The notes beneath the pieces were generated by a model. It was not told the origin of the DNA and did no database searches. It saw nothing but the letters and a program-made list of their open reading frames with translations. 38,193 bases of DNA from a virus. Positions 1,548-34,975 of this stretch are shown piece after piece. Both the position numbers and the translations under genes were made by a program. Each line of letters opens with the position of its first letter. Positions within the stretch are counted from its first letter, which is position 1. The stretch lies in the IMG/VR virus record IMGVR_UViG_3300034073_002656, positions 1 to 38,193 of that record. One strand, written 5' to 3'.

Positions 1548-1574
1548 TTTGTCTTAAAAACACAGTTTTGTAAC
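1548..1574 (+). promoter_or_regulatory. Late promoter-like 27-nt motif, copy A
   Basis: First of four ungapped copies (others at 8423, 21480 and 34949). 16 of 27 positions are invariant: TTTG at 1-4, C6, AAA at 9-11, A13, CAG at 16-18, T20, T22 and TA at 24-25. Copy A matches copy B at 23 of 27 positions. It ends 14 bases before the ATG of the first head gene, with an AAGGA Shine-Dalgarno between. It does not fit sigma70 spacing. A phage-specific promoter or activator site is inferred. Confidence 0.65.
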
Positions 1575-1588
1575 GAAAGGAACTCCCA

Positions 1589-1816
1589 ATGTCCCTACCC
1601 TTTGTACTCAAAGAAGAAGATAAAAAAGCTGGCGGCGTAGTTGTAGAGCACCGAAGTGAGCGAGAACCTCGCCCACGAAACCTTGGCCTTGAAGCTGCTG
1701 CTGAAGAACTACTAAAATCCATGGAGAGAAAAGACGTTCAAGGCATGGCAAATGCTTTGACGAGCGCATTCTATCTACTAGACGCAATGCCACACGCTGA
1801 AGGAGAGCATGAGTAA
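1589..1816 (+). CDS. Small hypothetical head-region protein
   Basis: A 75-aa acidic protein with a predicted helical C-terminal half (AAAEELLKSMERKDVQGMANALTS region). Its ATG has an AAGGA Shine-Dalgarno and it is the first gene after motif A. The stop overlaps the next start as TAATG. Its position just ahead of the portal cluster suggests a minor head-assembly or regulatory role, but no family is recognised. Confidence 0.75.
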   Translation: MSLPFVLKEEDKKAGGVVVEHRSEREPRPRNLGLEAAAEELLKSMERKDVQGMANALTSAFYLLDAMPHAEGEHE

Positions 1817-2511
1817 TGCCTCTAATCCAAGGTAAGTCTAAAAAGACTTTAGAAAAGAACATTAAGACAGAAATTGATGCGGGCCGTGACCCTAAGCAAG
1901 CAGTTGCTATTGCCTACGCAGTAAAGCGCAGAAACATGGCAAAGGGCGGCGGGTTATACGCAAACATACACGCCAAGCGTGAAAGAATTGCCGAAGGAAG
2001 CGGCGAAAAGATGAGAAAGCCTGGAAGCGAAGGGGCTCCTACGGCTGATGCATTTAAACAAGCAGAAAAAACAGCCAACATGGCTGAAGGGGGAATGATG
2101 AAAGAAGCAATGTGCGCCCATGGCGGAAGAGTAAAATGCAACCAAGGTTGCTACGCAGAAGGTGGAATGGTTGAAAACCAAAAACTAAACCCACACAATC
2201 AACCCCCAATGGACGCAAGACTAAAGCATCAAATTGCTACCATGAAAAAGCCCGGCATGAATTTAAGTGAAGTTGCAAAGCTTGCAATGGGCGGAGTGGT
2301 TGATCAAATCATGAGCGAAAGAAAGAAAATGGCCGAAGGCGGAATGGTTGACGAAGAAGAAAGATTAAGAGAGCCAGATTTTGAACCCGCAATGGATTTT
2401 TCTAATTACAACTATGTTGAAGACGATGAGCACGATGCTGAGCCTGTTGAGATGAGCAATAAACTTGTTGGTCAAATCATGACTGATAGAAAGAAACGAG
2501 TATCTCGCTAA
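1816..2511 (+). CDS. Putative virion-associated protein with AEGGMV repeats
   Basis: A 231-aa protein. The first 40 residues carry a pattern common in phage structural clusters, GKSKKTLEKN followed by DPKQAVAIAYAVKRR. After that come four spaced short motifs: MAEGGMM, YAEGGMV, LAMGGVV and MAEGGMV, separated by polar segments. The same AEGGMVE-[DN]-QK-x-NP block occurs in the portal extension, and AEGG/EEGG motifs recur in the 15483 gene, so these proteins probably share a virion-linked module. A Cys cluster (CAHGGRVKCNQGC) could bind metal. Coupled by TAATG on both sides. Function unknown. Confidence 0.75.
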   Translation: MPLIQGKSKKTLEKNIKTEIDAGRDPKQAVAIAYAVKRRNMAKGGGLYANIHAKRERIAEGSGEKMRKPGSEGAPTADAFKQAEKTANMAEGGMMKEAMCAHGGRVKCNQGCYAEGGMVENQKLNPHNQPPMDARLKHQIATMKKPGMNLSEVAKLAMGGVVDQIMSERKKMAEGGMVDEEERLREPDFEPAMDFSNYNYVEDDEHDAEPVEMSNKLVGQIMTDRKKRVSR

Positions 2512-2738
2512 TGGAATTAAAGGACTTAAAAGAATTATTAAAAGTCCTTCGTGACAAAGGCGTTACCGAGTACGAATGCAACGGGGTAAAGCTAAAGCTT
2601 TCTGAAGAAGTGCCTGTTTCTAAATACAAAAGAAGGCAGGAAGCGGAAGAGCAGATTGAACCTGAAATGACCGAAGAAGAAAGGTTGTTTTATTCTGCGA
2701 TTCACCCCATGACACCGATTGAAGAAACCGCACAATGA
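2511..2738 (+). CDS. Small acidic hypothetical protein
   Basis: A 75-aa protein with a helical start (MELKDLKELLKVLRDKGV) and an acidic tail (EEQIEPEMTEEER). It is coupled to the upstream gene by TAATG and to the portal by an ATGA overlap. Small acidic proteins directly ahead of portals are common in short-tailed phages, but none with a known role is recognised here. Confidence 0.72.
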   Translation: MELKDLKELLKVLRDKGVTEYECNGVKLKLSEEVPVSKYKRRQEAEEQIEPEMTEEERLFYSAIHPMTPIEETAQ

Positions 2739-5700
2739 GCCTAAAAACTACATTAAAGTCAAATTCCGGTAGAGCTACAAGAGTTTACAAAACCACTGAC
2801 ATGGGTATGCAATTGAATAAAGGCTACCGTTGGTGGGAAGCGAAAAGTGCAACCGAACGAAAAAACCAACTTCTTGCTACGGTAGCTTTTCTCAAACAAG
2901 GGCAAAAGTTTAGAACGGAAGAAACGAGGGTTTACAGTCAACTATATACTGGAAAGCCCATGGTCGGTTATGCGGGCCCGGCATTCAGCAAAGTAAGTAA
3001 TCCACTCAACATTGCTCCCGGAAGACCCACCTACAATCTTATTTCATCGGTCACTGACACTCTTGTCAGTCGATTGACACAGGATAGACCCGTTCCTGTA
3101 TTCCTAACTGACAACGGCGATTACAAAGAAAGAAATTTAGCTAAAAAGCTTAATGACTTTATCTTGGGGGAGTTCTACCGGACTAAGGCATACGAGATAG
3201 GAGAACAAATCCTAACCGATGCTTTAGTCCAGGGAACAGGCGTATTAAAAATCCATGAAACCATGGACAAAAAGGTTGGCATCGAGCGCGTTTTGCCTAT
3301 CGAGCTATTTGTAGACCTTGAGGAATCAAGATTCGGTGACCCAAGAAGAATGTATCAAGTTAAGTACATGGATCGCGCCATGGTTGAGAGCGCATTTCCT
3401 AAGCACAAGGCGATGGCCGCTGCTGCAGACAAAGGAATCTTAGAACAAAGTGATGCATCAAGAAGTGTTGCTGATTTAGTTGTTGTTGTAGAGGGCTGGG
3501 CACTTCCAAGCGGAGAAGACACAAACGACGGATGGCATTCGATTGTTTGTAGTGAGGGTGAGCTATTCGGCGAAAAGTGGACCAAGCAAAAGTTTCCTTT
3601 TGTATTTTTGCACCACAAAAAAAGACCTGAAGGATTCTGGGCCCAAGGCGTTGCCGAATCTTTAATGGGCACGCAATTAACGCTCAATGATTTATTAATT
3701 ACTATTGCACAATCAATTAGGACGATGGGTGTACCAAGAGTGTTTGTTGAGGAAGGTTCTAAGTGCAACACGGCAAGTTTTGTAAATAAAGTAGGAACAG
3801 TGATAAAGTATAGGGGTGCCGCTCCTATTTTTGCTACTAGCCCATCAAATGCTCCCGAGTTGTACGAAGAAAGAGCACGACTCATACAATTCGGTTTTGA
3901 GCAAGAGGGCTTGTCCATGCTTTCGGCGACAAGCCAAAAGCCATCGGGTCTCAATTCAGGAGAGGCACAACGAGTATATCAGGACATCAACTCGGATAGA
4001 TTTGCGTCGTTAGAAAGAAGGTATACAAACTTTTATGTGGATCTGGCTTACCAGCTTATTGATAAGGCCCTTGATATCGCGGAGCGAGATGGAAGCTATA
4101 CTACAATCTTTACAGACAGAAAAAAGGGATGCAAACAAATCGAGCTTCCTAAAATCAAAATGCTCAAAGACCCGTTCGTTATTCAGGCCTACGTTCAATC
4201 GTCGCTTCCAAAAGACCCCGCAGGACGACTGCAAAAAGTAACTGAGATGATTCAAAGTAACATGGTGACGATTCAAGAAGGGCGTCGCCTGCTTGATTTT
4301 CCTGATCTTGGCCAAGTTGAAACGCTTGCAAATGCTTCTGAAGAAAGAATTTACTACATTCTTGATGAAATAATTGAAAATGGCGTTTACGAAGGGCCTG
4401 ATCAGTTTATGAACCTTGCAAAGGCTACTGAAATCGTAACTCAGTACATAAACCTGTACTCCACTTGCAAGCTCGAAGAAGAAAAAGTGCAAATGCTTCG
4501 AGACTTCTTTGCTGAGATTCAAGATTTACAAATGGCAGCAATGCCACAGCCGCCGATGATGCCGCCTGAACCAAGTAATCAATTAGCTGTACCGCAAGGA
4601 CTTCCCACTAGTGAGCTATTGCCAATGGGACCTGGACCCGCGCCCACTGGCGGAGGCATCCCAATGATGGCTGAGGGCGGTATGGTGGAAGATCAAAAAA
4701 AAAATCCTTCTTTAGCTGAATCAGACCTTCCAGGCTGGCTACAAGGCATTAGACAAACAACGGTTCCAGCATTCCAACAAGCAAGTGAAACACTTCAAAA
4801 CGTTCCAGGCTTAGACTTTGCAACCTCTGCATTTAATCTCACATCTCCTGCCGCTTATGCATTTACCGAAGCGGGTAAGCCAGAGCCACAAGGAGGAATA
4901 CTTGAACAAATCTCCCATGTGCCTGGCGCTCAAGCTGCTGCAAACATTCCCACTGGTTGGAAGGTGTTGAGGGGCGAAGGAAAAAGCGCGTTTGATATAG
5001 CGAGAAAATACCAAGACGAAATTAAAAAAATAGAACAAGAAATTGCAGCGAAAAACTTAAAGGGCGAAGCAAAAGAAATGGCAATGATGGATATTATTGC
5101 AAGAGAAAGGAAACTTGAACAATTTGAGGGAATGAAAGAAAAGGCAAAACAAGCTTTTGAAGTCACTCGCACGCCGGAAGAAATTGCGGCAAAAGCACAA
5201 AAAGACGCCTTAGACAGGGTTACCAATATTGGGGGCGGCACGGTTGAAAGTCTTTTAAAACAAGGAAAGCCGATTGATGAAGTTGCCAAAGAGGTAATGA
5301 GCTGGAGAAAAAGAAATTTAGAAGAACAATTAAATAGATGGAAAAAAGATTTAAGCAATCCAAGAAGCTCTGCAGATGAAGTTAAATATGCAAAAAGGCG
5401 ATTGGAGGAATTAACTCAAGAATTGAAAGATTTTGAAAATGTTCCACTTGACCAAGTTGAAAGAGAGTTAATTGAAGATCAAAGGCGCTGGGAATTAATT
5501 ACAGGAGAAACTAAAAAAATAAACGAAAAAAGAGCCGAGCTACGAGCCGCAGAAGAAGAACGCTTGAAGAACGTTGTTGTTCCTATTGAGATTGAAGGCG
5601 GACCAAAGCCAAAGGGAAGGCCGTCAACAAAGCAAGTTGATCCGTATGAAAAAGAATGGACCAAATTAAATACAGAAAAAAGCAAGTTGTATGATGATTT

Positions 5701-5821
5701 TCACAATCCAAACAAAAAATCAAAACTTACCCAACAAGAATTTATTAATAAAAGAAATGAATTAGCAGAAAAAATAAACAAACTGGTTGAAACCAGAAGA
5801 AAGTTTAGAAGAAAAGACTAA
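2735..5821 (+). CDS. Portal protein with a 380-residue C-terminal extension
   Basis: A 1028-aa protein. Residues 1 to about 600 look like the portal (head-tail connector) of short-tailed phages: the long helical core includes LISSVTDTLVSRLTQDRPVP, ILTDALVQGTGVLKIHE and a segment around QKPSGLNSGEAQRVYQDI. A Pro/Met-rich linker (about 605-645) leads to an AEGGMVEDQK motif at 646-655 and a Lys/Glu-rich, coiled-coil extension (about 740-1028). Family portals are usually some 500-730 aa, so the extension is unusual. A run of ten A (4695-4704) sits exactly at the start of the extension. Losing one A gives TAG at 4713-4715 and gaining one gives TGA at 4717-4719, so slippage would release a normal-sized portal of about 660 aa. 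Confidence 0.85.
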   Translation: MSLKTTLKSNSGRATRVYKTTDMGMQLNKGYRWWEAKSATERKNQLLATVAFLKQGQKFRTEETRVYSQLYTGKPMVGYAGPAFSKVSNPLNIAPGRPTYNLISSVTDTLVSRLTQDRPVPVFLTDNGDYKERNLAKKLNDFILGEFYRTKAYEIGEQILTDALVQGTGVLKIHETMDKKVGIERVLPIELFVDLEESRFGDPRRMYQVKYMDRAMVESAFPKHKAMAAAADKGILEQSDASRSVADLVVVVEGWALPSGEDTNDGWHSIVCSEGELFGEKWTKQKFPFVFLHHKKRPEGFWAQGVAESLMGTQLTLNDLLITIAQSIRTMGVPRVFVEEGSKCNTASFVNKVGTVIKYRGAAPIFATSPSNAPELYEERARLIQFGFEQEGLSMLSATSQKPSGLNSGEAQRVYQDINSDRFASLERRYTNFYVDLAYQLIDKALDIAERDGSYTTIFTDRKKGCKQIELPKIKMLKDPFVIQAYVQSSLPKDPAGRLQKVTEMIQSNMVTIQEGRRLLDFPDLGQVETLANASEERIYYILDEIIENGVYEGPDQFMNLAKATEIVTQYINLYSTCKLEEEKVQMLRDFFAEIQDLQMAAMPQPPMMPPEPSNQLAVPQGLPTSELLPMGPGPAPTGGGIPMMAEGGMVEDQKKNPSLAESDLPGWLQGIRQTTVPAFQQASETLQNVPGLDFATSAFNLTSPAAYAFTEAGKPEPQGGILEQISHVPGAQAAANIPTGWKVLRGEGKSAFDIARKYQDEIKKIEQEIAAKNLKGEAKEMAMMDIIARERKLEQFEGMKEKAKQAFEVTRTPEEIAAKAQKDALDRVTNIGGGTVESLLKQGKPIDEVAKEVMSWRKRNLEEQLNRWKKDLSNPRSSADEVKYAKRRLEELTQELKDFENVPLDQVERELIEDQRRWELITGETKKINEKRAELRAAEEERLKNVVVPIEIEGGPKPKGRPSTKQVDPYEKEWTKLNTEKSKLYDDFHNPNKKSKLTQQEFINKRNELAEKINKLVETRRKFRRKD

Positions 5822-5843
5822 ACCTTTTTAGCAAAACAACAAT

Positions 5844-5857
5844 CTCGTAGCTACGAG
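5844..5857. repeat. Perfect 14-bp palindrome in front of the scaffold gene
   Basis: CTCGTAG followed immediately by CTACGAG, located 13 bases before the ATG at 5871 and next to its Shine-Dalgarno (GAGGAAAGGA). As RNA it could form a short hairpin close to the ribosome site; as DNA it could be an operator. Neither is proven. Confidence 0.5.
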
Positions 5858-5870
5858 GAAAGGAAAAACA

Positions 5871-6977
5871 ATGCCACTAACTGTAGAACCAAAAGCAAAC
5901 CCTGCTGCACCACAAGCACCAACTCCAACAGGTAGACATCAAGTCAGTTACGGAACACCAACGCCTACGACTGCAAGAGTTGAAGCATTAAAACAAAGAT
6001 TAAATAACCCAAGTGCTACGCAACAAATGGCAGCACCGAGGGTTGCAGGAAGCACCGCAAGACAAGAGCAATATTCTAAACAGCCGCACCAAGCTCCAAG
6101 ACAAGTTCAACAACAAAATCAAGAATATACGCAGCCGATGCAGGACATTGAGCCACCTCCAAGCGGAATGCCTCCTGTAAATACACAAGCTGAAGCACCG
6201 CAAGAATTGGCGCAGCAAACCAATATTGTTGAGGAACAAGCGGAACCATCTTCGGAAGCGACCGAGAAGCCCTTAAGTCCTCAATTTGTCGCCTTGGCAA
6301 AACAAGAGCGCGCGATTCGGAAAGCCCGGCAGGAGCTAAAAGCTCAGCAAGAGACTTGGGAACGTGATAAAGCAAGTTACGTTAATCTCGAGCAACTCAA
6401 AGCTGATCCGCTTAAAGCACTTGCTGAAGCTGGCATCTCTTACGATCGCCTGACCGAGTTACAGCTAGGCCAGGTCAATCCAGATCCTAATCAACAACTT
6501 CTCGACAAGATTCAGGAACTAGAAACTAAACTTGCAGCAGTAGACGAGCAATTCACGAAACGTGATACAGCTCAATACGAAGCTGCGGTTAACCAGATTC
6601 GTAATGATGTAAAGCTTTTGGTCGATTCTGATCCTACGTTTGAAACAATCAAGGAAACTGGCGAGACAGAATCCGTGGTTGAACTTATTAGAAAGGTCTT
6701 TGACGCCGAAGGAACCATCCTCGCTGTAGAGGAAGCCTCTCGGTTAGTTGAAGATAAGCTCCTTGAGAATAAGCTTGCTGAAATCGAGAAGCTATCTAAG
6801 CTTTCTAAATTTAAGTCGCGTTTAGGAAAGCCGGCAGAGATACCGGCAGAAGCAAGTGAGTTGCAGCAACAACAACCCGCTGCCACAACTCTAACGAATC
6901 AAGGAACGGTTAGCCGGCCCTTGAGCGCTAGAGAGCGGGCAATTCAGGCATTTGAAAAAGCTAAGTCCCAAGGTTGA
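5871..6977 (+). CDS. Putative scaffolding (capsid assembly) protein
   Basis: A 368-aa protein directly upstream of the major capsid gene, the usual place for a scaffold. Residues 1-130 are Pro/Gln/Ala-rich and disordered. Residues 135-175 and 205-235 form charged helices with coiled-coil character (KQERAIRKARQELKAQQ; LLDKIQELETKLAAVDEQF). A further helix follows, and the end is basic (ARERAIQAFEKAKSQ), as expected for contact with the coat protein. The composition fits podovirus scaffolds; no protease is seen, so removal by exit rather than cleavage is possible. GAAAGGA precedes the ATG. Confidence 0.8.
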   Translation: MPLTVEPKANPAAPQAPTPTGRHQVSYGTPTPTTARVEALKQRLNNPSATQQMAAPRVAGSTARQEQYSKQPHQAPRQVQQQNQEYTQPMQDIEPPPSGMPPVNTQAEAPQELAQQTNIVEEQAEPSSEATEKPLSPQFVALAKQERAIRKARQELKAQQETWERDKASYVNLEQLKADPLKALAEAGISYDRLTELQLGQVNPDPNQQLLDKIQELETKLAAVDEQFTKRDTAQYEAAVNQIRNDVKLLVDSDPTFETIKETGETESVVELIRKVFDAEGTILAVEEASRLVEDKLLENKLAEIEKLSKLSKFKSRLGKPAEIPAEASELQQQQPAATTLTNQGTVSRPLSARERAIQAFEKAKSQG

Positions 6978-7025
6978 ATGGTTCAGCCTTTTAGGGGCTA
7001 CAGCTTAAACTAAAGGACTAAAACA

Positions 7026-8333: not shown

Positions 8334-8380
8334 TGCCGATCGAGTTTGAGCGACTCGACAGGATGCGTAAAGAACACTAG

Positions 8381-8425
8381 CTTAAGGCGGGAAGGGATAA
8401 AACCTTTCTCGCCTTAAGTTTTTTT
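8381..8425 (+). terminator. Rho-independent terminator after the capsid gene
   Basis: CTTAAGGCG (8381-8389) pairs perfectly with CGCCTTAAG (8410-8418), with a further partly paired inner stem (GGAAGG/CCTTTC), and is followed by seven T. It closes the 1589-8333 unit. The downstream promoter-like motif B overlaps the T-run. Confidence 0.92.
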
Positions 8426-8449
8426 GGCTTAAAAATACAGTTGTGTAAG
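8423..8449 (+). promoter_or_regulatory. Late promoter-like 27-nt motif, copy B
   Basis: Second copy of the motif family described at 1548; it matches copy A at 23 and copy C at 22 of 27 positions. It begins inside the T-run of the capsid terminator and lies 85 bases upstream of the 8535 gene, so it should restart transcription directly after termination. Confidence 0.65.
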
Positions 8450-8534
8450 CCCAAGATGTCCTTGGGATACTACTCGCCGGGGTTTCTGCCTACCTCGTTG
8501 CTGGGTTTATTAAAGGCAGACAAGGACACTCATC
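8450..8534 (+). promoter_or_regulatory. Foldable 5' leader able to hide or expose the Shine-Dalgarno of gene 8535
   Basis: Two exclusive folds are visible. In one, CCCAAG (8450-8455) pairs with CTTGGG (8461-8466) as a local hairpin. In the other, TGTCCTTG (8457-8464) pairs with CAAGGACA (8521-8528), burying the AAGGA Shine-Dalgarno (8522-8526) 8 bases before the ATG, and the neighbouring TCTGCC (8485-8490) pairs with GGCAGA (8515-8520). The local hairpin forms first during transcription and would leave the ribosome site open. No known riboswitch class is recognised. Confidence 0.55.
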
Positions 8535-9185
8535 ATGGCTAATCGAAATTGGCTTTCTAATAAAATGTACCAAATGCAAGCTTACCCTTGCTTGGTCACC
8601 GTATCATTCGTAGTAGATAACACACTTCCTGACGGCGTGAATTTTGTAAAAGGCGGCGGAGTTAAAAACGTGTACATGAACACCGTTGGAACTCCCTCTG
8701 CTGGAAATCCTAATCCAGAAGCTGGAATCATTGTCGTTGAGCTTCAAGATTCTTACGAAAGACTTCTTGGCGGATTCGGTCAAGTAGCCTCTCCTCTAGA
8801 TGGCTCAACTCAAACCTCTACAACTGCAGGACAACTTTGCGTAATCGTTTCTTTGGGAACTGCAACTGATGCTCAATGGCGTGCAGCCGGACTTCCAGCA
8901 GGAATCGAGCCTGCTGTTGGAGTTGCTTTCGTTCCTACTGCAACTGGAACGATTGGTGGATCAGCTGCCGTACAAGGAGTGGGAGTTTCGGGAGCTACTC
9001 ACGTCGAAGCCTGCGGTAACGGCAATTTAAGCATTAATCGAAAAAACAGCACGGTAAACGGGGGGGGACTTGTGTACCTTCAAGCCTTAGATGCATCGGG
9101 AGCAAAAGTGGCTCCGGCTCTAAATAGTGTTTTTGTGCTAAGCCTTTACTTGTCTAACAGCTCCGTGACTGTTCAAGGCTTGTAA
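8535..9185 (+). CDS. Putative capsid decoration / minor head protein
   Basis: A 216-aa, beta-rich, Gly/Ala/Ser/Thr/Val-rich protein with no strong charge clusters. It has its own promoter-like motif, leader and terminator, so its dose is set separately from the capsid protein. Position next to the major capsid gene and composition (SFVVDNTLPDGVNFVKGGGVKN; VFVLSLYLSNSSVTVQGL) suggest an abundant outer head protein, by inference. A run of eight G (9060-9067) encodes Gly-Gly-Gly near residue 176. Confidence 0.7.
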   Translation: MANRNWLSNKMYQMQAYPCLVTVSFVVDNTLPDGVNFVKGGGVKNVYMNTVGTPSAGNPNPEAGIIVVELQDSYERLLGGFGQVASPLDGSTQTSTTAGQLCVIVSLGTATDAQWRAAGLPAGIEPAVGVAFVPTATGTIGGSAAVQGVGVSGATHVEACGNGNLSINRKNSTVNGGGLVYLQALDASGAKVAPALNSVFVLSLYLSNSSVTVQGL

Positions 9186-18539: not shown

Positions 18540-21479
18540 ATGGCCGATACACCAAACAAAATACCTTTACTTACTGGCGGGCAGCTTTACGAAGCAGTTT
18601 CAGAAGAAGCGGAATATTTAACAGGTCTTGGGTTTGAAACCGTTGCCCCAGAAGACGTCCCATTTTATCAAGCAAGCCAAACAGGTATTGGCGTATTAGA
18701 GGCGGGTGCCAGGGGTTTGTTTGGGCCACTCGCAACAGCTGCCGAAGTTGCTTTGGGAGTAGAACCGGAAGCAATTAAAAAAAGAGAAAAGATTTCTGTT
18801 GGCGAAGGGCTCTCTACAGCAATTGAGTTGGGCGGTTTAATACTTCCTGGGATGGCCATAACAAAAGCAGCATCCCTTGCCCAAAAAGGGGCCCAATTAC
18901 CAAATTATTTAAGTAGGCTTGCTACGGCTTCAAAATACACACTTGGCGGAGCTGCAGAAATTGCTGGAAGTGCAGCTGCCGCAGGAGTTGAAGGTCAAAT
19001 TGCACGTCTTACCACTAAATACGGACTTGAAAACGCTATATTTGGCGCAGCTGATGAGGTTGATAAATTGCTCTTGTCTGATGAACCACAAGACGCATTA
19101 CAAATTGCTGAAAACGTTGCAAGCGGCGCAGGGTTATCGTTTTTAATCGGGGCTGGACTTGGTGCCGGAGCCGGTAAAGTAAGTGAACTATGGAAGGCAA
19201 GAAAAGGCGGAAAAATTGCCCAAGTTTTAAACCAAGCAAAAAAAGATGCTGATCAGGTTATTACTGAAGCAGACATTTTGGCACAACAAGGAATCGTAAC
19301 ACCAAAAGTTCCGCCAACAGCAGAGGACTTAGGGCAAGCCGCTTCCCAAACGATCAAATCTTCTGATGATTTAATGAAGGTTGTAGAGGGGCTTCCAGAA
19401 TTAGAAAGCGTTCCATTAGAAACAAGAAAAATTGTTGAGGAAGCACAAGATAGGCTTAGGGCCCAGGGTTTATTAAAAATAGAAGCTCACGAAGGAATGC
19501 TTCGAGCATTAGAAGATGTAGAGCTTGCAAAGGTTTTAAATGTCGCAAAAGAGCGCGGCGATGATCTGGCAAAAGCACAAATTACGTTTGAACAGCACAT
19601 AAAAAAACAATCTGTTGAGGGGGTTGCTGACACAATAACTTCTTTATCCCCAAACCCAATTTCCGATTCAGTTCAAGCCGGTCAAAAGTTTGTTGATTTG
19701 GTAACTGACACATACGAAAAAACAAAAAAAGGATTTGAATCATTTTTTAAACAATTTGATACTGTTGGAACAAATAAACTTGATGACGTGTCGGCTCTCG
19801 CAACTTCTTTAGATCAATCTATTCCAGGCGTTGCAAACACTATAGAAATGCTTGAAGACGGAATTTTAAAATTAAAACCATATGATTCTACTTTCCCATA
19901 CTTAAGACAAACACACAGGGCAATTGGTGACGTTGTAAAAGCATTAAACAAAAAAGATTTAACCATTGGACAATTAAGATCTGTCAGAAAAAATTTAGAC
20001 AATTACTTAACCATGGCAACCCCGCCAGAAGCCCGTGGACAAATTTCTAGATTAAAAAAATCTTTAATGGACGTAATTCAAGATAACGTTCAAAAGGTGG
20101 ACGATAGCTTGCAGGTAAGAGAAAGCTTTAAGGCGTATAGACAAAATGAAGAATTTAGAGAAGCGCTTGAATCAATATTGGGCGGCAGATTTGGAGCTGA
20201 AGGAGTTTTAGAAAAACAAATAAAACCCGAAAACGTTTTAAAAAGACTTTTTGCAAATACGGTTGCCGTTCAGGATGCAAAAGCATTGCTTGGAGATAAA
20301 TGGAATAGTGTTCTTGCCGATTATTTAGCAATGGTAGAAAAATCGGTTATCGATAGAAACACTGGCGTTTTTAGTTCTGCAAACTTTAAAAACTTTCTTA
20401 AAAACAAAGAAGCCGTTTTAAAAGTTGCTTTTGAGGGTCAAGAACAAAAGCTTCAAAATCTTTATGATTGGAATGCTTTGATGAGAATCATTCCTGACAG
20501 AACTCCAGCAAACCCATCAAGGACGGCTCCAACGTTATTGGAGCTCGGAAAACAGTTGTTGGGAATCGGGGATTTATTAACGCCAACAGGGGCCGCTCAA
20601 AAAGCAGCTGACTTGGCAATGAACAAACTTAATCAACGCGCGATGAAACAAGGATTTGATTCGTTATTTAAAGACAAGGCAGCAAAGCCCGGCCTTGGAA
20701 TGTATCGATTTTTAGAATCAGCAAAAGAAGTAAGCGCCACAGCATTTGAGGCAATGCAGGATTTTATTAAGCAATCCGCAAAAGGCGCCTACTTAGTTAA
20801 AAATTCAGTAAACAGCATTTTTGAAGAAGAAAAGCCAAGCCCCGTAAAAGTTCCAAGTGAAAGAAGTTTGCAGTCTCTTGATAAAAAATTAATGGAAATG
20901 GAACAGGACATGGAGCAGATTTTAGATGCCGGAGGAGATGTTGGTTATTATATGCCAGAACAAAACACGGCCATCGGTGTTATCAATGCAAGGGTCATGA
21001 ATTATTTGGCTTCTCAAAGACCCGGGGTAAAGCAAGCCGGTTTGTTAAACGTTGAAAGACAACCGACAAAACCAGAAATGCAAAAGTATTACAGAACTTT
21101 GCAAATTGCAGAACAGCCCGCCATGGTTTTAAAAAGAATTAAAGAAGGAAGTTTAATTTCTAAAGACGTGCAAGACATTCAAGCGATGTACCCAGAATCA
21201 TACAATTATTTTTTAAATGTTTTGACCGAAGAAATTATCGATAGAAAATCAGAAAATAAGCCCATACCGTTTAGAACAAGAAAATCATTGTCTTTGTTCT
21301 GTGGAATGCCACTAGACACAACTTTAACACCACAAGCAATACAGGCAGCGCAAAGCACATTTGCTCCTAAAAACTTGCCGCCCCCTCAAACTCCACAATT
21401 TGCCCCAAAATCGGGAAGAAAGTCTCAAGTTCCTTCTTTGACTGAAACAGAGCAGCAAAGACGTCAAAGACAAGATTAG
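18540..21479 (+). CDS. Large internal virion / DNA-ejection protein (979 aa)
   Basis: Starts two bases after the previous stop. It has two hydrophobic Gly/Ala-rich segments, about residues 91-112 (LSTAIELGGLILPGMAITKA) and 192-213 (VASGAGLSFLIGAGLGAGAG), that could cross a membrane, followed by some 700 residues of Lys/Glu-rich helix. Size, position after the other internal proteins and this hydrophobic-then-helical layout fit the largest ejection protein of a podovirus. No transglycosylase or protease motif is seen. Codon use is A-rich as in 15483-18537. Confidence 0.62.
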   Translation: MADTPNKIPLLTGGQLYEAVSEEAEYLTGLGFETVAPEDVPFYQASQTGIGVLEAGARGLFGPLATAAEVALGVEPEAIKKREKISVGEGLSTAIELGGLILPGMAITKAASLAQKGAQLPNYLSRLATASKYTLGGAAEIAGSAAAAGVEGQIARLTTKYGLENAIFGAADEVDKLLLSDEPQDALQIAENVASGAGLSFLIGAGLGAGAGKVSELWKARKGGKIAQVLNQAKKDADQVITEADILAQQGIVTPKVPPTAEDLGQAASQTIKSSDDLMKVVEGLPELESVPLETRKIVEEAQDRLRAQGLLKIEAHEGMLRALEDVELAKVLNVAKERGDDLAKAQITFEQHIKKQSVEGVADTITSLSPNPISDSVQAGQKFVDLVTDTYEKTKKGFESFFKQFDTVGTNKLDDVSALATSLDQSIPGVANTIEMLEDGILKLKPYDSTFPYLRQTHRAIGDVVKALNKKDLTIGQLRSVRKNLDNYLTMATPPEARGQISRLKKSLMDVIQDNVQKVDDSLQVRESFKAYRQNEEFREALESILGGRFGAEGVLEKQIKPENVLKRLFANTVAVQDAKALLGDKWNSVLADYLAMVEKSVIDRNTGVFSSANFKNFLKNKEAVLKVAFEGQEQKLQNLYDWNALMRIIPDRTPANPSRTAPTLLELGKQLLGIGDLLTPTGAAQKAADLAMNKLNQRAMKQGFDSLFKDKAAKPGLGMYRFLESAKEVSATAFEAMQDFIKQSAKGAYLVKNSVNSIFEEEKPSPVKVPSERSLQSLDKKLMEMEQDMEQILDAGGDVGYYMPEQNTAIGVINARVMNYLASQRPGVKQAGLLNVERQPTKPEMQKYYRTLQIAEQPAMVLKRIKEGSLISKDVQDIQAMYPESYNYFLNVLTEEIIDRKSENKPIPFRTRKSLSLFCGMPLDTTLTPQAIQAAQSTFAPKNLPPPQTPQFAPKSGRKSQVPSLTETEQQRRQRQD

Positions 21480-21506
21480 TTTGGCGCAAAAAACCAGTTG
21501 TATAAG
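21480..21506 (+). promoter_or_regulatory. Late promoter-like 27-nt motif, copy C
   Basis: Third copy of the family described at 1548, matching copy B at 22 of 27 positions. It begins at the base after the stop of the ejection protein gene and precedes the fibre cluster. In this copy the 3' part reads TTGTATAAG, closest of the four to an extended -10 box. Confidence 0.65.
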
Positions 21507-21510
21507 TAGG

Positions 21511-21534
21511 CCCACAAGGCCCTAACCCACAAGG
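21511..21534 (+). repeat. Direct repeat CCCACAAGG in the leader of the fibre cluster
   Basis: CCCACAAGG occurs at 21511-21519 and 21526-21534, 15 bases apart. The second copy holds the Shine-Dalgarno (AAGGA at 21531-21535) of the gene at 21545. The first may be a decoy ribosome site or a chance repeat. Confidence 0.45.
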
Positions 21535-21544
21535 ACGGTTCAAA

Positions 21545-21931
21545 ATGTCTTCAAGAGTTCTTTTAAAGCCCCAAAAAGTCATGGACGCTGTAGTAGCTGA
21601 TCAGAATAGAACAAGCCTTGTTACAAACGTAAATATGATTTCGCTAGCCTCCTACACAATTGCCTGGGGAAATAGCGTTACCGGCGATTTTGATGTTGAA
21701 GTATCTAACGACTACATTGCACCCGTCGGCGTGCAACCAGAGCAAATAGATTCTGGTACCTGGGTTCCTGTTACTCTTAGCACTCCAGTCTCGGCTTCTG
21801 GAACCGCTGACACAGCTTTTATTGATGTTGCTTTAACCGGAGCAGCTTACATCCGATTGAAATTTACTGATACAAGCGGCGGCGCTGGCACTGGTACAAT
21901 TACGGCAACACTTGCAGGGAAGGTTAGCTAA
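21545..21931 (+). CDS. Small beta-sandwich fibre-associated protein, copy 1
   Basis: A 128-aa protein with an all-beta pattern ending in DSGTWVPVTLS, AAYIRLKFTDTSGG and GTGTITATLAGKVS. The same end pattern recurs in the 118-aa protein at 24877, and both sit directly ahead of a long fibre gene, so they look like paralogues. A role as fibre-binding chaperone, collar or carbohydrate-binding module is possible; no family is recognised. Coupled to the fibre gene by TAATG. Confidence 0.65.
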   Translation: MSSRVLLKPQKVMDAVVADQNRTSLVTNVNMISLASYTIAWGNSVTGDFDVEVSNDYIAPVGVQPEQIDSGTWVPVTLSTPVSASGTADTAFIDVALTGAAYIRLKFTDTSGGAGTGTITATLAGKVS

Positions 21932-25233: not shown

Positions 25234-25236
25234 CAA

Positions 25237-29818: not shown

Positions 29819-30011
29819 ACCAAAATACAAAGCCTATCTTATTTTAGGTAGAAAAGTTTGGCAGGTAAAACACATCGTTGGAGACATCCCCGAATACCAA
29901 GAGTTTGGAAACAAAAAACTAAAACTAAAAATGGTTCTTTGGAACTGCAATAACAAAGCAAACTTAGACAAATATAAGTTTGTAGAAATTCAAGCTTTAA
30001 TCTATCGGTGA
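29805..30011 (+). CDS. Small hypothetical basic protein
   Basis: A 68-aa protein; ATG at 29805 is preferred over an upstream TTG at 29775. It overlaps the endolysin end by 14 bases. Lys-rich and probably beta (KAYLILGRKVWQVKHIVGDI; LKMVLWNCNNK). No family is recognised. Its stop codon TGA falls within the left 9-bp repeat that flanks the tRNA gene. Confidence 0.55.
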   Translation: MELNKPKYKAYLILGRKVWQVKHIVGDIPEYQEFGNKKLKLKMVLWNCNNKANLDKYKFVEIQALIYR

Positions 30012-30103
30012 CAATTTATGGCTGGGTCGGACCGGCTCGAACGGTCATAAACCGAGTTAACAGCTCGGGGCTTTACCAATTAAGCTACAACCCAGTGACA
30101 ATT
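30008..30103. repeat. 9-bp direct repeats flanking the tRNA gene
   Basis: GTGACAATT occurs at 30008-30016 and again at 30095-30103, one copy on each side of the tRNA, 87 bases apart. The arrangement looks like a target duplication or recombination scar, but 9 bases alone can arise by chance. Confidence 0.6.
30019..30094 (-). tRNA. tRNA-Asn (anticodon GTT)
   Basis: On the minus strand the 76 bases fold as a complete tRNA. The acceptor stem is TGGGTTG with CGACCCA, including one T-G wobble, followed by discriminator G and an encoded CCA. The D arm has GCTTAATTGGTAAAGC. The anticodon stem CCGAG/CTCGG closes the loop CTGTTAA. The T arm GACCG-TTCGAGC-CGGTC is standard. The anticodon is GTT (Asn). 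It is the only gene found on the minus strand, between the lysis and early blocks, and lies antisense to any transcript reading from the lysis genes into 30171. Confidence 0.95.
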
Positions 30104-30129
30104 ATTGCGTCTGGATTTTAATTATCGAG

Positions 30130-30140
30130 TTTTGTATAAT
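30130..30140 (+). promoter_or_regulatory. Extended -10 promoter candidate for the early block
   Basis: TTTTGTATAAT (30130-30140) contains TG-n-TATAAT-like extended -10 spacing with a perfect TATAAT (30135-30140), 30 bases before the ATG of the Cas4-like gene. The -35 region is weak (TGGATT at 30112), as tolerated with an extended -10. It differs from the late motif and would be read by host RNA polymerase. Confidence 0.6.
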
Positions 30141-30170
30141 ACTTCAAGCCGGAAGCGAGGTCGGCAACAC

Positions 30171-31046
30171 ATGAAGCTTACCAACAAATTAAACTTACCA
30201 GAACCGTTTGTAAGAGCGGTATCAGAAAAAACATACGACAATCAAGGCAGCTGGAGAACGGTCACAGAGCTTATCGGCCCTCCTAAAATTGCTGCATTAA
30301 AACGAAAACATGAAGAAGAAATTGAGGTAGACGCAAGTGAACTTGTTTACACTTTTCAGGGCGAAACCGCCCATGCGACGATTGAGCGCGCTGCCAAAAC
30401 AATGTGCAAAGAAGGTTGGCAAGCTGAAGAGAGATTGTTTAAGACGGTACAGGGAAAGAAGATATCGGGTGCTTACGATTTATACAATCCAAAGACCGGA
30501 GAATTGATTGATGTTAAAAACTCGACGGCCTGGAAAGCTAAGCGTGGAGAAGCTCCTATCGAGTGGGTGCAACAGTGTAACTTACTGGCGCATCTTATAC
30601 GCGAAAAAGGACACGACGTTACAAGCATACGAATTATTCTCATTATTAGAGATCATTCAAAACCTGAATCTAGGCGAGACCCTGAATATCCGCAAACTCC
30701 CGTTGTGCAACTCGAAATCCCAATCTGGACGGACGAAGAAGCAAAAGCGTTCCTTGAAGATAGAGTCAGACTTCACCTACTTGCTGAAACTGAAGAAGTG
30801 GAGTGTTCTCCCGAAGACCGATGGGCAAAGCCAACGATTTGGGCGATCAGGAAAAGAGGAACTGCCCGGGCAATACCCGGAGGGCTTTACGCCGACAAAG
30901 AAAAAGCCAAAGAAAAATTAGAGCAATTAGGTAACGCATACGAGATTGACTATCGCCCTGGAGAAAACACAAGATGCGCTCTCTACTGCCCCGTTGCTAA
31001 GTTTTGTGCGCAGTATCAAAAGCTATTGACACAGCAAGGCAAATAG
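30171..31046 (+). CDS. Cas4-like PD-(D/E)XK nuclease with iron-sulphur cysteines
   Basis: A 291-aa protein; ATG at 30171 is preferred since an upstream TTG (30105) would place the promoter inside the gene. The nuclease motifs are His68 in FQGETAHATIE, Glu87, Asp103 in SGAYDLY and Asp114-Val-Lys116 in GELIDVKNS. Four cysteines, Cys212 (EEVECSPEDRW) plus Cys269, Cys273 and Cys279 (RCALYCPVAKFC), have the spacing of the 4Fe-4S cluster in Cas4/AddB-type exonucleases. A role in recombination, DNA end processing or host DNA breakdown is expected. First gene of the early block; no CRISPR genes lie nearby. Confidence 0.85.
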   Translation: MKLTNKLNLPEPFVRAVSEKTYDNQGSWRTVTELIGPPKIAALKRKHEEEIEVDASELVYTFQGETAHATIERAAKTMCKEGWQAEERLFKTVQGKKISGAYDLYNPKTGELIDVKNSTAWKAKRGEAPIEWVQQCNLLAHLIREKGHDVTSIRIILIIRDHSKPESRRDPEYPQTPVVQLEIPIWTDEEAKAFLEDRVRLHLLAETEEVECSPEDRWAKPTIWAIRKRGTARAIPGGLYADKEKAKEKLEQLGNAYEIDYRPGENTRCALYCPVAKFCAQYQKLLTQQGK

Positions 31047-31190
31047 TGTTTGAAGCATTGTCCCATTGGTTCCGTAGTGCACAGGGCCAAAGGCGAATAG
31101 GCGTACCCGCGCCTTAAGAAATCTGGGGTAACGCATCTTGACCCGAATGCGGTTCTCAATCGGGTCTTAAAAACCTTTTATGGAGACATC
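31047..31190 (+). promoter_or_regulatory. Structured 144-base leader between the nuclease and the zinc-ribbon gene
   Basis: Several hairpins are visible: AGGCG-TACCCG-CGCCT (31099-31114), AACGCAT (31130-31136) with ATGCGGTT (31147-31154, one bulge), and GACCCGA (31140-31146) with TCGGGTC (31160-31166), the last followed by TTAAAAACCTTTT and then the ATG at 31191. The second and third overlap and cannot form together, an attenuator-like or riboswitch-like layout. No late motif is present and no known riboswitch is recognised. Confidence 0.45.
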
Positions 31191-31445
31191 ATGCAATTAA
31201 CTAATCTCGAGCGAGCTTTATTACGCGCTGCTAATGCGTTTATTCAGTCCTACAATGAATCGAAAGGGGACGGGCAAGGGGTAGGTAGCGGGTCACTTAA
31301 ACAAACGGCCCAAAGCGCTCCTACGCCAACTTCAAACGGAATCCCTGTTTGTAATATTCACGGCAAACCAAACCGACCAAGTAAAAAGGGCAATGGTTAC
31401 TATTGCTTAGATTGTTTCTTAGAGCGCAAGAACGCAAGGAACTAA
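31191..31445 (+). CDS. Small zinc-ribbon protein
   Basis: An 84-aa protein. The N-terminal helix (LTNLERALLRAANAFIQSY) is followed by a Ser/Gly/Thr linker and a metal-binding end, CNIHGKPNRPSKKGNGYYC-LDC, i.e. C-x2-H...C-x2-C. Such small fingers are frequent in phage early regions and usually bind DNA or protein. It follows the structured leader and is separated from the next gene by three bases. Confidence 0.7.
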   Translation: MQLTNLERALLRAANAFIQSYNESKGDGQGVGSGSLKQTAQSAPTPTSNGIPVCNIHGKPNRPSKKGNGYYCLDCFLERKNARN

Positions 31446-31448
31446 GAA

Positions 31449-31691
31449 ATGAAAAACCAAACTGGCTATTTTGTTTACTTTGATGCGGTCGACGATTGGC
31501 AGATAGTTCACGAAACAGAAATACCCCTTGATAAGCTTAAAGAAGCATTCAAAACCCAAAAGTGGTTTGAGGATTATGAAACCGCAGCTGACTATGTAAT
31601 CTTTCAATTAAACTTTTACAGCAGGGTAATTGCTAAGCACAAAAAAGAGCTACAGAAATCCATAAATGGAATCCATAACCCTAACAATTAA
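31449..31691 (+). CDS. Hypothetical early protein (80 aa)
   Basis: An aromatic-rich alpha/beta protein (GYFVYFDAVDDWQIVHET; KWFEDYETAADYVIFQLNFY). Its final 26 bases overlap the start of the replication gene in another frame, suggesting coupled translation. No family is recognised. Confidence 0.65.
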   Translation: MKNQTGYFVYFDAVDDWQIVHETEIPLDKLKEAFKTQKWFEDYETAADYVIFQLNFYSRVIAKHKKELQKSINGIHNPNN

Positions 31692-32415
31692 AAACTGGAA
31701 GAAATACCAGGTTAGGGGAGATTACAAATCCCCTTGGTGGTTTGCTTTTCACAACAAATTTTGGCGTACAGAAAAGTACGATATTTTAACCCACGAACAG
31801 AAGTGGGCATGGATTTGTTTGCTCAGTCATGCCTCAGAACAGCGTTATAAATCGTCTATAACAATACGCGTTGATTGGTTTTGCAGGACCGCAAATGTTG
31901 AAAAAGCATCATTTTTAGGGGCATTAAAAAAGCTAATAAATTTAGATGTTTTGGAGTGCAAAGAAGAAATCTGTACGGAATCTGTACAGAATCTTGCCAG
32001 AATCTCTCCAGAAAATGGATCGTCCACAATTAAACAATCTAACAATTTAACAATTAAACAATATAACAATAATACAAAAAACAATTCTTTTAGAGTTTGC
32101 GTCGAACCAAAACAAGTTTTGGTTACAACGCCTACTGTTATTAAAAATGATCTTTCATTTTTTATTAATAAAAAGCTTTTAGAACTTTATCCGCAGGAGT
32201 ACATCGATCGTGAAAAAGTCAAAATGGAGATGTGGCTTGCTACCAACGGACATAAAAAGCCCAAATCCGATCGGGGTATGGTTCGGTTTGTAACAGGGTG
32301 GTTATCCCGGGGATGGGAGACTTATCGGCGCGGGCTTTCATCTAACAAACCAAAAGAACGCGGTATTGCAGAAATTTTAGCGGAGGATGAACAAAATGGA
32401 TCTATCGACCTATGA
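31666..32415 (+). CDS. Replication initiator candidate (winged-helix, lambda O-like organisation)
   Basis: A 249-aa protein. Residues about 10-105 (WWFAFHNKFWRTEKYDILTHEQKW, ITIRVDWFCRTANVEKASFLGALKKL) have the layout of the winged-helix N-terminus of phage replisome organisers. A low-complexity linker (about 106-148: TIKQSNNLTIKQYNNNTKNN) is encoded by two direct-repeat arrays. The C-terminal region (LYPQEYIDREKVKMEMWLATNG, GMVRFVTGWLSRGWETYRRG) is a conserved end in such proteins. The putative origin lies inside the gene, as in lambda O. The helicase-loader candidate follows with a 20-base overlap. Confidence 0.75.
   Translation: MESITLTIKNWKKYQVRGDYKSPWWFAFHNKFWRTEKYDILTHEQKWAWICLLSHASEQRYKSSITIRVDWFCRTANVEKASFLGALKKLINLDVLECKEEICTESVQNLARISPENGSSTIKQSNNLTIKQYNNNTKNNSFRVCVEPKQVLVTTPTVIKNDLSFFINKKLLELYPQEYIDREKVKMEMWLATNGHKKPKSDRGMVRFVTGWLSRGWETYRRGLSSNKPKERGIAEILAEDEQNGSIDL
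31968..32011 (+). repeat. Four tandem 11-bp repeats (iteron candidate)
   Basis: Units begin at 31968, 31979, 31990 and 32001 and share AATCT followed by six bases that end C-R/A-G: AATCTGTACGG, AATCTGTACAG, AATCTTGCCAG and AATCTCTCCAG. The 11-base period is not a multiple of three, so protein-level selection alone would not keep it in register. They lie inside the initiator gene. Confidence 0.8.
32025..32072 (+). repeat. Six tandem 8-bp A+T-rich repeats
   Basis: ACAAT-centred units begin at exact 8-base intervals, 32025, 32033, 32041, 32049, 32057 and 32065. Each is AACAAT plus two bases, the first having C for A; another AACAAT lies at 32080. The block is almost pure A/T plus the central C and could be the DNA-unwinding element beside the 11-bp iterons. 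Confidence 0.8.
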
Positions 32416-32878
32416 TATTGAAATGCAAAGATTGATGAGCCAATGGCCACACTCGTACTCGGAGCAAAGAAGAAAGATTTTTTTTAATGCCTTACGAGAT
32501 GTATCAAACCACGATTTTAGGGAAGCGGTAACTCATTGCCTTGCGACGTGTAGATCAGCTCCCCTGCTCGGAGAACTGACAGAAGCCGTCCATGTTGCGA
32601 GAACAAATTATATACAACAAAAAAGAATGGACGATGCCGCCCGGTCGATGTTTGATGGCATCCCAGAAACCAACTGGGCGGACAGGGAATTTGTGGATAG
32701 GTGTATGCAGCTTGTGAATGACAAGCTTAGCAATAAAATTACCTCGAAACAATTTTACCAGGGTTGCGATTTGTTAGATCAAGCAGCGCTGTTGTACAAA
32801 AATAATAAAAAAGGCCCGAATAAAAAACCGCCCGAGAAAAGAAAAGATCCGTACAAAGACGACGATGCAACAATTTAA
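32396..32878 (+). CDS. Helicase-loader candidate
   Basis: A 160-aa protein. The ATG at 32396 is nine bases from GCGGAGG and is preferred to the ATG at 32387, which abuts it. The N-terminal half is helical (MSQWPHSYSEQRRKIFFNAL; SNHDFREAVTHCLATCRS; LLGELTEAV), a pattern seen in small phage helicase loaders/inhibitors of the G39P type; the C-terminus is Lys/Pro/Asp-rich. Its place directly after the initiator supports the call. No ATPase motif is present. Confidence 0.6.
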   Translation: MDLSTYDIEMQRLMSQWPHSYSEQRRKIFFNALRDVSNHDFREAVTHCLATCRSAPLLGELTEAVHVARTNYIQQKRMDDAARSMFDGIPETNWADREFVDRCMQLVNDKLSNKITSKQFYQGCDLLDQAALLYKNNKKGPNKKPPEKRKDPYKDDDATI

Positions 32879-33071
32879 AACCGTGCACATAATTCGCAGC
32901 ATTTTGAAAGAAGCACGCATTCCATGGTACCGAATTCAGTACAAACTTATGGATGAAAAAGAATGGGTGTTGTTAATAAAGAGTGCCGCTAACCACATGG
33001 ATAGATTAAATTATCCAAACGAAACAAAAAAAATAATTAGGCAATTTATTTTCGATTACGAAAAAAACTAG
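32865..33071 (+). CDS. Small hypothetical early protein (68 aa)
   Basis: Its ATG overlaps the end of the loader gene by 14 bases. It is helical and basic (HIIRSILKEARIPWYRIQYKL; KKIIRQFIFDYEKN), has no recognised domain, and may bind nucleic acid or a replication partner. Confidence 0.62.
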   Translation: MQQFKTVHIIRSILKEARIPWYRIQYKLMDEKEWVLLIKSAANHMDRLNYPNETKKIIRQFIFDYEKN

Positions 33072-33114
33072 TAGACAAAACTAAAATCATCGCCCAACAT
33101 TTTTTGTTCAAGCG

Positions 33115-33474
33115 ATGAGAAGCAACCTGAAATACCGCAGCAAGAGGGTTAATCACGAAGGATTTTCCTTTGCCTCCCAATTAGAAGCCGCAGTTTATCA
33201 GCACCTAAAACTTCGTGAAAAGTGCGGCGAAATAAAAGACATTCAAAATCAAGATCATGTTTATCTAACCGACGCCCGAATTTGTTACATCCCGGACTTT
33301 AAATTTTTTGACATATCTCGAGACGAGTTTTCCTGGGCCGAAGCAAAAGGATTTGAAACAGACGTGTGGAAAATCAAAAAAAGACTTTGGCAACATTACG
33401 GTCCAGGAAGGCTTGAGATTTACAAAGGCAGCGCAAAACGAGTGACGCTATTTGAAACGGTGATTCCAAAATGA
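33115..33474 (+). CDS. DUF1064-type PD-(D/E)XK endonuclease (resolvase-like)
   Basis: A 119-aa protein starting KYRSKRVNHEGFSFASQLEA, close to the DUF1064 pattern. Active-site candidates are Glu24, Asp61 (YIPDFKF) and Glu76-Ala-Lys78 (WAEAKGFET), with a following KIKKRLWQHYG helix. Members of this fold are endonucleases similar to T7 gp3 that act on branched DNA, so a role in resolving recombination or replication intermediates before packaging is likely. The Shine-Dalgarno is weak. An ATGA overlap links it to the next gene. Confidence 0.8.
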   Translation: MRSNLKYRSKRVNHEGFSFASQLEAAVYQHLKLREKCGEIKDIQNQDHVYLTDARICYIPDFKFFDISRDEFSWAEAKGFETDVWKIKKRLWQHYGPGRLEIYKGSAKRVTLFETVIPK

Positions 33475-33686
33475 GCTTGGCCAATGAAATGAAATACTGG
33501 CAGTCACTTATTACTTTTAGCGAAGAAGCTTGTTGCAGAAGCAGTCATGAGTATTACAATTCAGCTTTGAAAATAATTCCAAAACCTGACGAGTACGTTT
33601 GCGAAAGAGAAAGGGCGTGGAGAAATTATGTAAGAAAGCGCGACAACAATCCGCGTTTTCCGTTCGACAGGAAGTGGAAAGAATGA
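33471..33686 (+). CDS. Small hypothetical early protein (71 aa)
   Basis: Overlaps the nuclease stop (ATGA). Helical, with a CC pair and an Arg-rich end (CERERAWRNYVRKRDNNPRF). No family is recognised. Confidence 0.6.
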   Translation: MSLANEMKYWQSLITFSEEACCRSSHEYYNSALKIIPKPDEYVCERERAWRNYVRKRDNNPRFPFDRKWKE

Positions 33687-33820
33687 AGAAAAGACGCGAA
33701 CACATGAAGGTTGCTGACAAGGTAAAAAGAATATGCCTAAGATGCTGTAAACATTTTTTGTCGTTGCACAAACACAATCGGCTTTGTGATTCGTGCGCGA
33801 CTAAACAAGACTACGAGTGA
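33683..33820 (+). CDS. Small zinc-finger protein (45 aa)
   Basis: The ATG at 33683 overlaps the previous stop (ATGA) and follows GTGGAAAGA; a longer reading from 33599 would lie mostly inside the previous gene. It has a classic phage zinc ribbon, ICLRCCKHFLS followed by RLCDSC, i.e. C-x2-C...C-x2-C, with a basic N-terminus. Likely a DNA-binding regulator or accessory protein. Confidence 0.72.
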   Translation: MKKRREHMKVADKVKRICLRCCKHFLSLHKHNRLCDSCATKQDYE

Positions 33821-33827
33821 GGAAATT

Positions 33828-34046
33828 ATGAGCGAAGAAAAAAAGTTAGTGCCCTTAAAAGTTGTTGTAGACGCAGCAACTCTTGATCCAGAAACCGGCA
33901 AAGTTGAAGTGCTAAGTGGATTAGAAAAAATTTTGATTGAGCAGCTGGTCAGAGAAATCGGGGCTCTTTCAAACCAAGTAAAAGACCTGCAAGAAAAACT
34001 AAAGCCCGTTGAAACAAAAGAAGAAGATAAAGGCGAGCAACTGTGA
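33828..34046 (+). CDS. Small acidic coiled-coil protein (72 aa)
   Basis: The ATG at 33828 follows GAGTGAGGA and is preferred to the upstream frame extension at 33786. Residues 24-60 form a helix with coiled-coil features (EKILIEQLVREIGALSNQVK). No function is recognised. The stop overlaps the GTG start of the next gene. Confidence 0.65.
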   Translation: MSEEKKLVPLKVVVDAATLDPETGKVEVLSGLEKILIEQLVREIGALSNQVKDLQEKLKPVETKEEDKGEQL

Positions 34047-34309
34047 GCATATTTAAAAAAGAAAAAAAAGAAGAAACGCTGCAAGAAGTGGAGCAAGCTT
34101 TTAGCGAGCTTCAGTTTGCAGTTGGCCAATATTATTATTTAGCGCACATCAAAAGCGAAGAAGCCAATCAGTATCAGGACAAGGCAAATGAGGCGGCTGT
34201 TCAAATGCAAAGATTAGCGCAAAAAGGATTGGCGTTAAGAAAACGAATTGAAAGCGAAGTAAAAGAAACAATCGAGAAGGGACAAAAAGTTGAAAGCCCG
34301 CTTAACTAA
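34043..34309 (+). CDS. Helical hypothetical protein (88 aa)
   Basis: GTG start overlapping the previous stop. It is entirely helical and charged (EEVEQAFSELQFAVGQYYYL; NEAAVQMQRLAQKGLALRKR), with the look of a small coiled-coil dimer. Function unknown. Confidence 0.62.
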   Translation: MSIFKKEKKEETLQEVEQAFSELQFAVGQYYYLAHIKSEEANQYQDKANEAAVQMQRLAQKGLALRKRIESEVKETIEKGQKVESPLN

Positions 34310-34628
34310 ATTATTAATTTGGTTGAATTCTTTTATTCCTGAAAGACTTCCTCAAGGAATGACCGAGTTTAACCGATGGGTGGAAGAAATTAGTGAGCTA
34401 AGTGGCTTACCAATTAACGACAAGCTAAAAAAAGTTATCGGCACTTTGATTCTGCAATTGCCCCCGCAAGTGGCTTATGTCCCAAAAAGACACGTTGCCA
34501 ATCTTGTAAAAAAGGCCGCTGCAAATCAAGTGAGCGTCGAGGTTTTAAATCTCATCGATGAAAAACAAAAACAACAAAGTGACGCTGCAACAACTGACCA
34601 AAATCTGGGACAAGAAACTAAAGGATGA
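34290..34628 (+). CDS. Hypothetical early protein (112 aa)
   Basis: TTG start after GAGAAGGGA, overlapping the previous gene by 20 bases. The segment GMTEFNRWVEEISELSGLPINDKLKKVIGTLILQLPP resembles a helical domain common in small phage early proteins. The last 71 bases are shared, in another frame, with the HTH gene at 34558. Confidence 0.62.
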   Translation: MKARLTKLLIWLNSFIPERLPQGMTEFNRWVEEISELSGLPINDKLKKVIGTLILQLPPQVAYVPKRHVANLVKKAAANQVSVEVLNLIDEKQKQQSDAATTDQNLGQETKG

Positions 34629-34962
34629 TGGCTTTGTCGACATCGAAAACCGCCAAACAGGATTGTTAAATACCTGGAGCGGAAAATTCTTTTACGGCAC
34701 AGATACCACATTTGCCGAAAAGATAAACAGAGAAGCAATGAGGCGCTTTGGTTCAACCCACAAAGAATCTGAGGCTGAGTATTTTAGGCTCGCAAGCCAT
34801 TGCTTACATGAGCAAGAATTCAAATCCGTCCGTCATAGAATTATCTGGCAGCTCCATGCTGAGGGTTATAGTTACAACGAAATCGCTAAAGAATTAAATA
34901 CTACCACAAGAAAAGTTAGATACGCGATTGAGATGATGGCAAAGGCTTTTTGTCTCAAATAA
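34558..34962 (+). CDS. Sigma-region-4/ArpU-like HTH protein, candidate late-gene activator
   Basis: A 134-aa protein. Residues about 92-131 form a helix-turn-helix of sigma-factor region 4 style (HRIIWQLHAEGYSYNEIAKEL followed by NTTTRKVRYAIEMM). The N-terminal 90 residues are helical and basic with no further domain. Length, HTH at the C-terminus and position at the end of the early block, upstream of terS, match the RinA/ArpU late regulators of phages. The late motif D overlaps its stop codon. Direct regulation of the four motifs is inferred, not shown. Confidence 0.72.
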   Translation: MKNKNNKVTLQQLTKIWDKKLKDDGFVDIENRQTGLLNTWSGKFFYGTDTTFAEKINREAMRRFGSTHKESEAEYFRLASHCLHEQEFKSVRHRIIWQLHAEGYSYNEIAKELNTTTRKVRYAIEMMAKAFCLK

Positions 34963-34975
34963 CCAGCTTTGTAGC
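34949..34975 (+). promoter_or_regulatory. Late promoter-like 27-nt motif, copy D
   Basis: Fourth copy of the family described at 1548, matching copy A at 21 of 27 positions. It overlaps the last codons and stop of the HTH gene and ends 11 bases before the ATG at 34987. It would drive the block that ends with terS and terL. Confidence 0.62.

Follow-up and report, generated by a model that had tools for sequence, protein, structure and literature searches.

Genome-specific spelling of 27-bp sites that are probably late promoters read by a phage protein in an uncultured phage group

We describe a 27-bp motif lying upstream of the late-gene blocks of an uncultured phage and its relatives, the copies of which are probably late promoters read by a trans-acting factor of the phage, the likeliest being the HTH protein encoded at 34558-34962, together with host RNA polymerase. 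The window, meaning the whole stretch of DNA that was analyzed, is the 38,193-base IMG/VR record IMGVR_UViG_3300034073_002656. Its ends overlap by 246 bases with 1 mismatch, which means that either the map is circular or the record wraps, and the ORF of the terminase large subunit runs unbroken across the record ends. The sequence-only reading of this DNA had proposed that the motif is a late promoter or an activator site specific to the phage; that proposal is supported by the retention of the sites at the same places in relatives, by their co-variation within genomes, by the terminator and leader at one of them and by the failure to match a phage polymerase. Promoter activity, the start position, the use of host RNA polymerase and the identity of the reader are the parts that we infer.

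The four copies, all on the coding (plus) strand, lie at 1548-1574 (A), 8423-8449 (B), 21480-21506 (C) and 34949-34975 (D). As reported earlier, 16 of the 27 columns are invariant, with 23 positions shared between A and B, 22 between B and C, and 21 between A and D. Each site consists of an imperfect dyad, TTG-N11-CAA/G (positions 2-18), followed by TG(T/A)A(A/G) at positions 22-26. When scored with leave-one-out position weight matrices, the copies reached 30.4, 31.1, 27.6 and 24.3 bits, the best remaining place in the record reached 11.6-13.9 bits, and the best score in 60 Markov-simulated genomes was 19-20 bits. No equally good copy exists elsewhere in the record (24-31 bits for the copies versus at most 14 for the rest), and the four 27-mers are far above chance. 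The motif was not cleanly retrieved by a de novo clique search, not even from the window itself.

Gene assignments were taken from PHROGs and Pfam scans. Copy A lies 142 nt past ORF 1151-1405, and 14 nt separate it from the gene at 1589; the block downstream of it comprises the genes at 1589, 1816 and 2511, the portal gene (2735), the scaffold gene (5871) and the capsid gene (7026). Copy B is found 89 nt past the capsid gene, with 85 nt between it and the gene at 8535, and copy C abuts the stop of ORF 18540-21479 and precedes a 128-aa gene at 21545 and the tail-spike/fibre block. Copy D overlaps the HTH gene by that gene's final 14 bases and ends 11 nt before the gene at 34987, with TerS and TerL downstream. 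The earlier description has each copy starting right where a gene ends or directly behind it, which holds exactly for C only; A and B are set off by the distances given above, and D begins inside the HTH gene. The portal ORF carries a C-terminal extension of ~390 aa (window 4637-5821), which is also present in L007 and missing from most relatives.

At the start of the early block is a tRNA-Asn gene on the minus strand (30019-30094). A TATAAT element of the early region was read from the sequence at 30134-30141 on the plus strand; the late sites, in contrast, have no -10 hexamer. A scan for TTGACA/TATAAT with 16-18 bp spacing returned none of A-D, in agreement with the earlier view that they are unlike standard sigma70 promoters. 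Sigma54 was rejected on reading the sites, which have no GG/GC elements.

A search of IMG/VR with the capsid protein yielded 46 loci. Capsid or portal relatives were absent from 50,697 phage records (known isolates), and a host search found no capsid relative in GTDB genomes. In the near relatives, whose capsid proteins are 84-96% identical, the motif stands before the orthologues of those four genes, though the set has gaps and several of these records are fragments; it is conserved in relatives at the same syntenic places. Counterparts of copy A were found in G002, G004, G005, G006, G007, G019, G026, G028 and L119, those of copy B in G002, G004, G005, G006, G007, G019, G026, L006, L007 and L010, and those of copy C in G002, G004 (where it is degenerate), G006, G007, G019 and G026. 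Copy D occupies the same overlap or place in G002, G004, G007, G019, G026, G027, G028 and L119, and is missing in G005 and G006, though both have the HTH gene.

The spelling of the motif differs by genome, as illustrated by GCCTTAATTAAACAA in G006, GCCTTGAATAGACAA in G019 and TGTCTCAATTACACAA in G026. Mean core identity of the sites was 0.80 within a genome versus 0.63 between genomes, a gap that none of 5000 label permutations reached and that is somewhat favourable, since some copies of C and of a fifth site, E (described below), were chosen by resemblance near a fixed place. Peculiarities are shared within genomes as well: the stretch from CC to TGTA is one base longer at B in both G005 and L007, and at A in G005 too, and C6, invariant elsewhere, is T in both sites found in L119. 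The agreement within genomes and these shared oddities are what would be expected from a shared trans-acting reader. More distant genomes appear to have motifs of their own. A clique search suggested TACACCATCCTATAC in G008 (L077, L078) at the places that correspond to A, B and C and also where one virion gene ends, and in a second distant clade (G011, G022, G010 and G013) sites resembling AGCA-N-TTT-N-GAY-N2-CTA, seeded by eye, were seen at the A and B places, with a CCTAGG hairpin after the B-place site.

All four sites of the sequence-only reading are real, but its count overlooked a conserved intragenic fifth site. Site E (6206-6232, plus strand) falls within the scaffold gene and upstream of the capsid gene. 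The copy in the window is weak, scoring 12.2 where the next place scores 12.1, and the claim for E therefore rests on the relatives: 13 related records, several of them near-identical, keep it in the same codon frame and at the same position, and by each genome's own model it is the top-ranked place genome-wide in 7 of 11 cases (one tied). Given that D and E overlap coding sequence and that E encodes part of the scaffold, one could envisage that these two are by-products of conserved protein sequence. We consider this very improbable: E sits in a poorly conserved linker of the scaffold, yet it matches the spelling of each genome (0 of 5000 permutations when only pairs with E were used), and where D falls with respect to the HTH protein's conserved end differs in G007, G026 and G004.

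The surroundings of site B bear on where RNA would start. An intrinsic terminator with an 18-pair stem and a U tract follows the capsid gene (8379-8420, plus strand), and B begins 2 nt further on; from the 3' end of B, the leader of the gene at 8535 (8450-8534, plus strand) folds into a hairpin and an H-type pseudoknot and carries a Shine-Dalgarno sequence. In hand-aligned strands of this leader from 11 genomes, double changes were found in 12 of 18 pairs, and 93.9% of cells were paired versus 79.5% in shuffles (0 of 5000 as high). The 5' hairpin showed little covariation, chiefly one compensatory pair in G007. An Rfam search gave no match at the motif sites or at the 8450-8534 leader, which is possibly a new cis-regulatory RNA. 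Since the terminator abuts B and a structured leader runs from its 3' end, transcription probably begins there. At site A, the Shine-Dalgarno sequence falls in the first ~10 bases past the motif, and this position and the leader hairpin at B together suggest an RNA start at, or close to, the motif's 3' end. Two elements stand in the leader of gene 21545 (21507-21544): a short hairpin, GGCC, and a Shine-Dalgarno sequence, CACAAGGAC, that is kept in relatives.

The presence of every copy on the coding strand and of structured leaders at B and C would also suit sites that work in RNA, as signals for processing, antitermination or translation, instead of as DNA promoters. The partial dyad symmetry, however, is typical of DNA sites, one copy stands mid-gene in the scaffold ORF, and the strong terminator right before B would let little upstream RNA arrive; we regard an RNA function as very unlikely indeed. 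A start at the motif end does not fit TG(T/A)AR as a sigma70 -10 element, which would be too close, and the polymerase contact is then unexplained. The geometry is T7-like, with TGTA and then a purine at the start, and the leader hairpin and Shine-Dalgarno positions point to a start right where the motif ends, an arrangement seen in T7-type promoters. The sites could accordingly be promoters of an unrecognized phage RNA polymerase acting in place of host polymerase and the HTH protein, particularly as the virion block encodes big proteins with no family match, such as 18540-21479. This possibility appears improbable. The domain PF00940 was unmatched in the window and ten relatives, while the T7 control matched at 9.9e-110, in support of the earlier statement that no phage RNA polymerase is encoded, and the called ORFs lack a DxDxD motif; a single-subunit phage polymerase was rejected on these grounds. 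The product of 18540-21479 lies among virion genes and is poorly conserved beyond the nearest relative.

We favour instead the reading in which a phage protein directs host RNA polymerase to the sites, and the likely candidate for that protein is the product of the plus-strand gene at 34558-34962. It is a basic protein of 134 aa (pI 9.5; 9.1-9.8 among the HTH proteins) with a C-terminal HTH at residues 91-130 that weakly matches Sigma70_r4_2, GerE and late-activator families. With respect to homology to a described Ltr family, its matches, phrog_836 (0.006) and phrog_3855 (8.5e-6), together with Pfam hits under the cut-off, are weak and cover the HTH domain only. The AlphaFold model is confident for the HTH domain only, and this predicted domain resembles the GerE-type and sigma4 folds. 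A homologue was found in 16 of 25 related records, near-complete ones included, and was marginal in G008; searches of viral contigs returned none with the single sequence and ten with an alignment. Between the window and G002, the HTH protein is 60% identical, compared with 96% for the capsid and 92% for the portal, which places it among the faster-diverging genes; equal or greater divergence is seen in the tail-fibre genes and in a handful of small early genes (32865, 34043 and 33786).

A link between this protein and the spelling is likely. In a small sample, C at position 5 was seen only in genomes with the recognition helix DKxRRxxER (G006, G019 and G027). Mantel tests against spelling distance in nine genomes gave weak correlations, with r 0.18 (p 0.20) for the HTH protein and r 0.24 (p 0.11) for the helix. 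The weak Mantel result and the three small early genes that diverge at the rate of the HTH gene are consistent with another phage factor, sigma-like or otherwise DNA-binding, reading the sites while the HTH protein does another job. That arrangement is unlikely, given the DNA-binding domain of the HTH protein, the late-activator position of its gene, the site D at the gene's own end and the accompaniment of C5 by the DKxRR helix in three genomes.

With the HTH protein as reader, the switch would work as follows. Each site of ~27 bp would be a late promoter, with RNA starting at its 3' end or no more than a few bases from it. Host RNA polymerase would be recruited or redirected by a phage DNA-binding protein, for which the 134-aa HTH protein, the last product of the early cluster, is the likeliest candidate, and the blocks for terminase (D), portal and scaffold (A), capsid (E), post-capsid functions (B) and fibre (C) would be switched on together. 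Extending this to the lineage is more tentative: late promoters may stand at fixed places, one of them within the scaffold gene, while their letters and their reader change together and fast, such that close relatives (96% in the capsid) differ, distant ones use unrelated motifs, and the start-abutting core matches no described class of bacterial or phage polymerase.

New here are the spelling private to each genome, the fifth site within a gene and the layout that probably sets the site next to the start. A switch of late genes is predicted for an uncultured phage group that has no capsid or portal relative among the isolate records searched, and the genomes of the group form a natural series of regulator and site pairs. 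Should the HTH protein be the reader, their comparison would reveal which helix residues choose which bases, and would provide small promoter-activator pairs, which may not cross-react. Site E would exemplify a regulatory signal retained within changing coding sequence.

The repeated coding-strand site before several late operons that marks the class of phage late promoters is present here, and the arrangement is closest to P2 Ogr, the Ltr proteins and phiEco32/7-11, none of whose sets of defining features it shares in full. It differs from T7-type promoters in that no gene for a PF00940 single-subunit polymerase was found. Phage P2 has four late promoters with TGT-N12-ACA, activated by Ogr (PMC3931495); common to both are four late operons with a short dyad site each and, as proposed here, one small phage activator working with host polymerase. 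Unlike in P2, the dyad is TTG-N11-CAA/G, the HTH protein has no CX2CX22CX4C zinc finger, the site appears to adjoin the start, and the spelling is strongly different among close relatives. Ltr proteins are small and basic and are encoded last in the early cluster, and the repeats that they target lie at the 3' end of the gene that encodes them (PMC13123087). The HTH gene resembles those of Ltr, RinA and ArpU in being small, basic in its product, last in the early cluster and upstream of the terminase genes, with a site at its own 3' end; however, Ltr acts on a set of imperfect repeats before one promoter that yields one long transcript, whereas single sites occur here at four or five blocks. 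Phage P1 has no RNA polymerase of its own and redirects the host enzyme to its late genes by a small factor, Lpa (PMC8201110), much as we propose. The late promoters of phiEco32 and 7-11 are similarly placed in the genome, but their letters differ, and so do the phage sigma factors (PMC8948821). Those two phages have a recognizable sigma factor and a start 6-9 bp from the element, where we find a 134-aa protein with only a sigma4/GerE-like HTH; what they share with the group described here is that related phages keep the places of their late promoters, proposed ones in the present case, and differ in the letters.
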